Positions 41,055-44,378 of a stretch of 64,000 nucleotides of DNA are shown one piece after another. A program made the translations under genes and the position numbers. This DNA comes from Gammaproteobacteria bacterium (GTDB lineage Bacteria; Pseudomonadota; Gammaproteobacteria; Enterobacterales; Psychrobiaceae): the NCBI GenBank assembly GCA_013214945.1, contig JABSRT010000015.1:1-64000 (forward strand), in the 5' to 3' direction. Position 1 is the first letter of the stretch; each line of letters starts with the position of its first letter. A model generated the notes under the pieces. It saw only the letters and a program-made list of their open reading frames with translations. It had not been told where the DNA came from and ran no database searches.

Positions 41055-42293
41055 CTAGCTATCACCGGCAAATTGTCCGGCTTTCGCTAATGCACATGCT
41101 TCAACCGAAATAATATCGGCATAACCTTGCGAGCTTTCAGGGTTAAGACCGTCGCTAGCTTCCATTGAGGAATCTTCTTCATTGTATAAAGACGCCTCAA
41201 TATTAACCATGCTATTGAAAAACACATTGCCTTTATATAAACCTAAGTTCACTTCACCGGTCGCGCTGTGAGTTAGCTTATCAATCGCACTCATCGCTGC
41301 TTTAGTTGCAACATCAAAATTACGGCCATCATAAATTTGATCTGCCACAACTCGACTTAAGCTGTTATAAAGTGCTGTCGAACGACGATCTAAAGTGGCT
41401 TGCAAAATGTTTTGTAGACCTTGGCTTAATAACTCCATGCCAGGGGCTTCATAAACACCACGGCTTTTGGTGCCAATGATTCTATTTTCTAACGCATTGG
41501 ACATGCCAACACCATTACGACCACCGATTTCGTTGGCTTTGCTCATTAAATCAAAAGGGTTTAATGCTTCACCATTAATTTCAACTGCATAACCGTGTTC
41601 GAATTTAACGGTAACATTTTCGATCTTGTCTGGTGCTTGTTGCGGCCATACGCCCATGGTCGGCTCAACAATGAGACATGAAGTTTCGAGACTTTCTAGA
41701 TCTTCCGCTTCATGAGACAAACCAGCAAGGTTAGCATCCGTCGAATACTTCTTTTTCATGCCAATGACAGCAGGAATACCGAACTGAGCAAGATAGTCGG
41801 CCATTTCACTACGACCAGGAAATTGCTCTAACAACTTGGCGTCACGCCATGGCGCATATACTTGCATGTCAGGTGCAAGCGAGCGTGTGTAACGCTCAAA
41901 ACGCATTTGATCATTGCCACGACCTGTTGCGCCGTGCGCTAAAATATTCACGTTACGCGCTTTCATGGCTTTAATTAGCCCCTGCACAGTCACGGCTCGC
42001 GCAATACCTGTGGTATTCCAATAACCGCCGTCATAGGTCGCATTAGCTTTAATTGTTTCAAAACAAGCGTCTGCCATTTCTTTTTTCAGGTCTACTAATA
42101 CCGTTTCGGCACCGCAAGGATCCATTTTACGCACAACATTTTGAATATCGTCTTCATCAGGTTGAGCCAGATCAGCTGAAAAACAGATAACTTTAATGTT
42201 ATCTTCCATTAATCGCTTAGTAACTGTTTTGCTATCCAAGCCACCAGAAACACAAACACCTACTAATTTATCTTTTAAATCTGACAATTCCAT
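41055..42293 (-). CDS. Argininosuccinate-synthase-related protein
   Basis: A 412-residue member of the ATP-pyrophosphatase superfamily. VCVSGGLDSKTVTK is the PP-loop, resembling ArgG's SGGLDTS. GRGNDQMRFERY and YNSLSRVV are ArgG-like segments. Sequence is far from canonical ArgG (for example Lys replaces the Ser after SGGLD, and KMDPCGAE is unusual), so this may be a paralogue with altered substrate. ATG 42293 is preceded by GTGAG at good spacing; a GTG three codons upstream is possible. It stands alone, divergent from trhP; no other arginine gene is nearby. Confidence 0.8.
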   Translation of the reverse strand: MELSDLKDKLVGVCVSGGLDSKTVTKRLMEDNIKVICFSADLAQPDEDDIQNVVRKMDPCGAETVLVDLKKEMADACFETIKANATYDGGYWNTTGIARAVTVQGLIKAMKARNVNILAHGATGRGNDQMRFERYTRSLAPDMQVYAPWRDAKLLEQFPGRSEMADYLAQFGIPAVIGMKKKYSTDANLAGLSHEAEDLESLETSCLIVEPTMGVWPQQAPDKIENVTVKFEHGYAVEINGEALNPFDLMSKANEIGGRNGVGMSNALENRIIGTKSRGVYEAPGMELLSQGLQNILQATLDRRSTALYNSLSRVVADQIYDGRNFDVATKAAMSAIDKLTHSATGEVNLGLYKGNVFFNSMVNIEASLYNEEDSSMEASDGLNPESSQGYADIISVEACALAKAGQFAGDS

Positions 42294-42497
42294 ACTAAAC
42301 ACTCACACAAATATCGGTTAAAAATATCGACTATATACCAGCCGAAAAGAAGACAAACACCCAGTAATCATATACCGAGTTATTATGCTAGCCAACATAT
42401 ACTAATGACTAATAAAACACAACAATAAATGAATACTTATATCGAGATCATGAATAAAAATTCATTAATCATGCAGTCTGTTGCGAGTTTATTGACT

Positions 42498-42529
42498 GGC
42501 TATCACTTGATTGAGATCAACTGATAGCC
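42498..42529. promoter_or_regulatory. 32-bp palindrome with perfect FNR-type core
   Basis: GGCTATCA, C, TTGAT, TGAG, ATCAA, C, TGATAGCC form an almost perfect 32-bp palindrome. Its core TTGAT-N4-ATCAA (42507-42520) is an exact FNR/ANR consensus. It lies between the divergent argG-like and trhP genes. Confidence 0.75.
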
Positions 42530-42542
42530 CTTAACATCAAGA

Positions 42543-42548
42543 TAAAAT
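42543..42548 (+). promoter_or_regulatory. Predicted -10 element of the trhP promoter
   Basis: TAAAAT at 42543-42548 would give a start at about 42555. The centre of the FNR-type core (42513/42514) is then at -41.5, the position of class II FNR activators. Confidence 0.55.
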
Positions 42549-42579
42549 TCCCGATCCAAATTCCCTGAGAACTGCTTTA

Positions 42580-44013
42580 ATGTATACCCCCGAACTATTA
42601 TCCCCGGCTGGCAGCTTAAAAAACATGCGCTACGCCTTTGCCTATGGTGCCGATGCTGTCTATGCAGGACAACCTCGTTATAGCTTACGCGTGAGAAATA
42701 ATGAATTTACCCTTGAAAATTTAACCATCGGTATTAACGAAGCCCATGCGTTAGGAAAAAAATTCTACGTGGTCAGCAATATAGCGCCACACAATAGCAA
42801 GTTAAAAACCTATATCCGCGATCTAGCGCCAGTAGTAGCATTGCAACCAGACGCATTAATTATGTCTGATCCGGGCTTAATTATGCTGGTCCGTGAGGCC
42901 TATCCTCAATTGACTATCCACTTGTCGGTCCAGGCCAACGCGGTTAATTGGGCAACCGTAAAGTTCTGGTATCAGCAAGGGATCAAACGCGTGATCTTAT
43001 CGCGTGAATTATCAGTCAAAGAAATAGCAGAAATCCGCCAAGCCGTGCCGGAGATGGAATTAGAAGTATTTGTCCATGGCGCTTTATGCATGGCCTATTC
43101 TGGTCGCTGTTTATTATCAGGTTACATCAACAAACGCGATCCAAATCAGGGCACCTGTACCAATTCATGTCGCTGGAAATATGATGCGCACGGTGCAACA
43201 GAAAATGAGACTGGCGATATTGTCGCCACTAAGCCGCCATTATTAGCGCAAACACCCGCTGATCGGGAACAAGTTAATCCGGTAAAAATTGAGCCAGCAC
43301 AAACTGAGCCAGCAATAGTACAACCAACTTTAGGCAAGGGAACGACCACCGATAACATTTACCTATTACAAGAAGCCGGCCGCCCCGGTGAATATATGCC
43401 AGCATTTGAAGACGAGCATGGTACCTATATCATGAACTCAAAAGATTTGCGGGCGGTCGAAATGGTTGAGCAGCTAACGCACATTGGACTACATTCATTA
43501 AAAATAGAAGGTCGAACAAAGTCATTTTATTATTGCGCCCGAACAGCGCAAGTGTATCGCAAAGCCATTGACGACGCGGTGGCAGGTAAACCTTTCGACC
43601 CAACTTTAATGACCTCTTTAGAGCATTTGGCACACCGTGGTTATACAGAGGGCTTTTTACGGCGTCATAACCATGATAATTATCAAAATTACGATTACGG
43701 CTACTCAATGTCCCAAACCCAGCAATTTGTTGGTGATATAACCTGCCGTAACGATAAAGGTTGGGCACGGGTTGAGGTTAAAAATAAATTTCTGGTTGGT
43801 GATAGCCTCGAATTAATGACGCCTAGCGGTAATATCAACTTTGTTTTAGAACAACTTGAAGATAAAAATGGCCAAGCTATTACGGTTGCTCCCGGCTCAG
43901 GTCATGTGGTTTATCTGCCCGTGCCGCAAGATATTGACTTAGCATTTGCATTATTAATGCGTCACTTTAAAGTTGAACAGGACTCACGCAATCCGCATTA
44001 CGAGGCTAAATAG
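42580..44013 (+). CDS. trhP: tRNA 5-hydroxyuridine synthesis protein, peptidase-U32-like (YegQ)
   Basis: A 477-residue protein matching E. coli YegQ (453), renamed TrhP, which makes 5-hydroxyuridine at tRNA position 34 in a prephenate-dependent, oxygen-independent reaction. The N-terminal U32 barrel contains ELLSPAGSLKNMRYAFAYGAD; the signature CMAYSGRCLLSGYINKRDPN holds Cys residues thought to bind an iron-sulfur cluster. A Pro/Gln/Glu-rich insert near residues 210-250 is about 20 residues longer than in E. coli. FNR-type palindrome 60 bases upstream suggests induction without oxygen. Ferredoxin gene yfhL follows. Confidence 0.93.
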   Translation: MYTPELLSPAGSLKNMRYAFAYGADAVYAGQPRYSLRVRNNEFTLENLTIGINEAHALGKKFYVVSNIAPHNSKLKTYIRDLAPVVALQPDALIMSDPGLIMLVREAYPQLTIHLSVQANAVNWATVKFWYQQGIKRVILSRELSVKEIAEIRQAVPEMELEVFVHGALCMAYSGRCLLSGYINKRDPNQGTCTNSCRWKYDAHGATENETGDIVATKPPLLAQTPADREQVNPVKIEPAQTEPAIVQPTLGKGTTTDNIYLLQEAGRPGEYMPAFEDEHGTYIMNSKDLRAVEMVEQLTHIGLHSLKIEGRTKSFYYCARTAQVYRKAIDDAVAGKPFDPTLMTSLEHLAHRGYTEGFLRRHNHDNYQNYDYGYSMSQTQQFVGDITCRNDKGWARVEVKNKFLVGDSLELMTPSGNINFVLEQLEDKNGQAITVAPGSGHVVYLPVPQDIDLAFALLMRHFKVEQDSRNPHYEAK

Positions 44014-44111
44014 GCCAATAAAAAAACTTATATAGACACTGATAACTGAACAAGTAAATCAAGCCAGAGGCATCGCTTAAAGCGCTGCCTCTGGAATTGG
44101 TATTAATGTAA

Positions 44112-44378
<267 letters not shown>

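Follow-up and report, generated by a model that had tools for sequence, protein, structure and literature searches.

A predicted FNR-type site before trhP and a tRNA-like leader of the same gene in related bacteria

The trhP locus and its upstream region

The window, by which we mean the whole 64,000-nucleotide stretch of gammaproteobacterial DNA that was analyzed, contains a gene for TrhP, the prephenate-dependent tRNA uridine(34) hydroxylase, at 42580..44013 on the forward strand. The product matches the domains PF01136 and PF16325 and scores 810.6 bits against the NCBIfam equivalog NF011996 (cut-off 534), above its scores for U32 paralogues, which bears out the gene identity given in the initial annotation. 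UbiU or UbiV identity for 42580-44013 was ruled out, the UbiU score being 181.6 bits against a cut-off of 440. The divergent neighbor on the reverse strand is argG (41055..42302; TIGR00032). It was judged an unlikely target of the site described below, as its start lies ~200 bp from that site, which also occurs at trhP loci without argG upstream.

Downstream of trhP, a yfhL-family gene for a 2x[4Fe-4S] ferredoxin with a TTG start is found at 44121..44378 on the forward strand (NF033683, 129 bits). A yfhL homologue also adjoins trhP in Moritella, Psychromonas, Aeromonas, Shewanella, Vibrionaceae and Pseudoalteromonas. This adjacency suggests a functional link or an operon, with co-transcription possible, and because it extends across many genera, control at the trhP promoter may reach the ferredoxin gene. 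A hairpin on the forward strand between the two genes (CCAGAGGCA...TGCCTCTGG, 44064..44094), which lacks a strong T-run, could weaken read-through from trhP into yfhL. A literature search for yfhL together with hydroxylation found nothing.

The region before trhP contains the 14-mer TTGATTGAGATCAA at 42507-42520, which is the sole exact match to TTGATN4ATCAA in the 64-kb window. It reads TTGAT-TGAG-ATCAA, is assigned to neither strand, and is predicted to be an FNR-type site from its sequence and from its recurrence before trhP in relatives. The exact FNR/ANR consensus claimed by the initial annotation was thus confirmed, and the 14-mer matches exactly the type of site found in class II FNR-activated promoters. 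It is embedded in an imperfect inverted repeat at 42498..42529, likewise without strand, that is laid out as GGCTATCA-c-TTGAT-tgag-ATCAA-c-TGATAGCC, where GGCTATCA and TGATAGCC form the outer arms. The repeat had been described as a 32-bp palindrome. Its length is correct but its symmetry is not perfect, since the 13 paired positions are interrupted by a single C/C mismatch (42506/42521) and the TGAG center is unpaired. The outer arms occur once in the genome, and a search of nine other genomes of the genus did not find them, so that comparative support is limited to the 14-mer; their single occurrence also ruled them out as a mobile or conserved element. An Rfam search of the window returned no match.

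A TAAAAT hexamer at 42543..42548 on the forward strand was taken as the -10 element, and a transcription start at 42555 (forward strand), 7 nt past it, was deduced from its position. For this assumed start, the site center (42513.5) lies at -41.5, which reproduces the arithmetic of the initial annotation. No good -35 element is found near TAAAAT; the best candidate is CTGATA, which matches at 4/6 positions and lies within the inverted repeat. Class II FNR-dependent promoters have TTGATN4ATCAA centered at -41.5 and a -10 element without a good -35. The trhP promoter of the window resembles them in its exact site, its predicted -41.5 position and its poor -35.

Recurrence of the site and candidate regulators

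The initial annotation had proposed a search for the site before trhP in relatives, and this search was positive. Exact sites no more than 170 bp upstream of trhP were found at 8/106 loci, which represent 3/20 families of the order; the family count is the safer of the two because loci within a family are related, and dinucleotide shuffles gave a mean of 0.05 for each. When up to one mismatch was allowed, 22 of the 106 loci had a site, versus 1.4 in shuffles. Among the seven complete trhP loci of the genus, three carry an exact site (L001, L006 and L007), two a one-mismatch site (L004 and L005) and two no site with at most one mismatch (L002 and L003). A further family (f2), whose sequence matches named Moritella loci, has a one-mismatch site at -96/-97 in 11/11 loci. 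Named site-bearing loci include Moritella, Pseudoalteromonas, Rouxiella and Serratia. Most families sampled have trhP without the site; neither an exact nor a one-mismatch site was found within 170 bp upstream of trhP in Vibrio-like, Pasteurellaceae-like and Aeromonas-like families, nor was such a site found in the ~150 bp before the start of E. coli trhP.

Lineages with the site differ in what lies upstream (argG, ndk, the baeR/yegP side or either of two unrelated genes for membrane proteins), which indicates that the site follows trhP. Even inside the genus its position, at -66 or -102 relative to the start codon, and its geometry vary; the site therefore seems not to be strictly conserved but to undergo gain, loss or relocation. 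The predicted FNR-type control of trhP is lineage-specific, and an FNR-type switch before the gene appears, from these comparisons, to recur in several unrelated bacterial groups.

Spacing to the promoter was evaluated with a TAnnnT hexamer having at least 4/6 matches as the -10 criterion. By this criterion, 6 of 11 site-bearing lineages have the site at -41.5±1 (shuffle mean 0.54, with 0/2000 shuffles as high), and a second group near -71 comprises 4 of the 11 (shuffle mean 0.69, P 0.0025); as these lineages were picked for bearing a site, the shuffle is a test of spacing alone. The two groups are close to the class II and class I positions, respectively. Where the site is missing within the genus, the -35 element is better (TTGCCA in L003, 5/6 with a spacer of 17), as is expected if an activator replaces the -35.

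Exact TTGATN4ATCAA sequences number 36 in the whole genome, versus 8 for a reversed-pattern control, and many of the 36 fall within genes. Intergenic exact sites are found upstream of ccoN, a NosR-like gene and a gene that is OmpW-like, its 208 bits falling short of the cut-off of 287. Judged by -10-like hexamers, the positions are -42.5 for ccoN and -40.5 for ompW; two more exact sites fall at -40.5 and -41.5. Counting two other genes besides the NosR-like gene, ompW and ccoN, the genes preceded by exact sites in L120, L123, L124, L132 and L136 make up a small candidate FNR regulon, and several of these sites are near the class II position relative to a -10. Another exact FNR-type site was observed 133 bp before a CBASS-cyclase-like gene that scores below its family cut-off (L129 1647-2678).

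Three proteins encoded in the genome match the Pfam Crp domain. FNR itself is encoded at L111 943-1674 (NF008365, 405 bits; cut-off 228), with N-terminal CHGTNSIHCQSCSMADLC cysteines and a later CEIP cysteine for the cluster, as well as an E. coli-like VETISR recognition helix. A second Crp-domain protein reads, by inspection, as CRP. We also observed, at L113 230-847 (G000 contig 6), a 205-aa protein of the Crp/Fnr family that has no cysteine cluster at its N-terminus. Its Crp-type helix, REVVSR, has the E..SR residues of FNR-type recognition, and it might for this reason read FNR-like sites. TrhO is encoded at L149 778-1755 (NF001133, 347 bits; cut-off 170).

A tRNA-like leader of trhP outside the window

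At 129 of 186 trhP loci, a sample in which some species are present twice, CTGA-N7-TCAG occurs in the 100 bases that precede the match. Every one of the 129 loops conforms to YYTRNNN and not one does so in the reverse orientation; this one-way orientation argues for an RNA element and against a symmetric DNA site. All 129 have U as their third loop base. As anticodons, the loops correspond to UGA (88), UGU (30), UGC (8), UAC (2) and UGG (1), all of which are anticodons of cmo5U34-carrying tRNAs in E. coli; because G35 is almost fixed, this set follows largely from U34-G35 and by itself is limited evidence. In L209, L225, L227 and L234, trhP is preceded by the core CTGACTTGTAATCAG, which exactly matches that of the anticodon arm of E. 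coli tRNA-Thr(UGU), a tRNA that we read as a TrhP substrate, and CTGACTTGTAATCAG copies checked in seven genomes are located in tRNA-Thr(UGU) genes. The motif is found only a few times per genome, in tRNA-Thr genes, the trhP leader and at most three other places.

A second hairpin lies 0-2 bases upstream of the anticodon-arm motif. It has at least six consecutive pairs in 75% of 80 non-redundant leaders, versus 7% of shuffles and 2.5% of the adjacent upstream stretch, and all four Watson-Crick pair types are seen at each of its first seven helix positions. Pairing was counted by script; a MAFFT alignment misaligned the variable first hairpin. A predicted hairpin followed closely by a predicted anticodon arm is the layout of the D-arm and anticodon arm of a tRNA. 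This leader, a hairpin and then CUGA-YYUGNNN-UCAG, precedes trhP in L053 (2460-2500), L209, L225 and E. coli K-12 (L258 919-970), where both the hairpin and the anticodon-arm copy are present. It was found in many families of the same order (Enterobacterales, GTDB). The more distant L292 and L297 have variant stems with a UGC loop, but these are single cases that could be due to chance. Among the 186 loci, the leader is absent from the genus of the window, its own trhP included, and from several other families. In Photorhabdus (L090, L095 and L106), the anticodon-arm-like leader looks degenerate, unlike that of its relative Xenorhabdus. No Rfam family matches the leader, 16 trhP loci yielding known sRNA, 5S rRNA and tRNA only, and a search of the literature for an autoregulated yegQ/trhP leader gave nothing relevant.

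The existence of a conserved, covarying trhP leader is well supported by these sequence comparisons. Its role is likely to be autogenous control by TrhP, which would bind the leader through tRNA mimicry. If so, the leader would be a new case, an RNA-modifying enzyme whose mRNA imitates its own tRNA substrate, and one that is testable in E. coli K-12.

Proposed control of trhP and comparison with known systems

We consider it highly probable that FNR binds the 14-mer and, from -41.5 of the trhP promoter, acts as a class II activator. As O2 falls, a [4Fe-4S] FNR dimer would bind the 14-mer and contact RNA polymerase, the promoter having no good -35. This would increase transcription of trhP, and perhaps also of the yfhL ferredoxin gene, and synthesis of ho5U34/cmo5U34 would be kept going while TrhO is without its O2 substrate. 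FNR binding, activation, the start site and the physiological purpose are all matters that we infer from DNA sequence. TrhO requires O2, while cmo5U34 is made anaerobically through TrhP, and the modification that depends on TrhP is unaffected by anaerobiosis (PMC6599085); anaerobic induction of trhP is therefore sensible, as the initial annotation had held. TrhP is presumably needed in air too, and induction could thus be modest. The view that such induction is undescribed also held, in that no paper tying trhP or yegQ to FNR was found in the literature searched.

Another Crp/Fnr-family regulator, such as the cluster-less 205-aa protein, might use the site instead and respond to a signal other than O2 itself, for example NO. 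FNR and DNR sites share a common consensus, the REVVSR helix of the cluster-less protein retains the E..SR residues, and a NosR-like gene with an exact site is present in the genome. We nevertheless regard this alternative as unlikely, because the genome encodes an FNR whose recognition helix resembles that of E. coli and because exact sites also stand before classic FNR targets (ccoN, ompW and nosR).

It is far less probable that the inverted repeat is not a protein site and serves as an RNA or DNA hairpin, either terminator-like or shielding an upstream transcript. The strand does fold to a hairpin of 13 bp, which is dominant in the centroid (z -2.06), but no T-run follows the repeat, the FNR core recurs in relatives that lack the outer arms, and a start downstream of the repeat, as deduced here, would exclude it from the trhP mRNA. 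A functionless chance match is just as improbable. The control pattern leads one to expect ~8 exact matches per genome, and the position of many of the 36 inside genes suits such a reading, yet chance does not account for recurrence before trhP in several families with a spacing to the -10 in common. Binding of FNR to the 14-mer is the reading that we prefer.

Taken together with the leader, these observations favor, with a modest degree of confidence, control of trhP at two levels within the order: FNR would act at the promoter in some lineages, and in many families TrhP would bind, and perhaps hydroxylate, the tRNA-mimic leader when unmodified tRNA is scarce, so that translation is repressed. 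The trhP gene of the window would have the FNR level only. If FNR control is true, modification of a tRNA wobble base would be tied directly to O2 sensing. The O2-independent route would be raised as the O2-dependent enzyme loses its substrate, comparable to anaerobic ubiquinone synthesis by the paralogous UbiUV, and there would be a ready explanation for why two enzymes are kept for one reaction.

The genome resembles E. coli in its dual pathway, with a prephenate-dependent TrhP and an O2-dependent TrhO. E. coli trhP differs from that of the window in that it has no FNR site near its start and has the anticodon-arm-like leader instead; FNR is unmentioned in the E. coli work on the two enzymes (PMC6599085). 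The closest parallel is with the U32 paralogue ubiUV of E. coli, for which activation by FNR is experimental and the site lies 36 nt upstream of the start (PMC10470549). The target of ubiUV is ubiquinone and not tRNA, and its F1 site (TTGATTTAAGGCAG) is weaker than the exact site of the window. In both ubiUVp (PMC10470549) and the trhP promoter described here, where the site is predicted, an FNR site lies just before the promoter of an O2-independent U32-family hydroxylase that has an O2-dependent counterpart.
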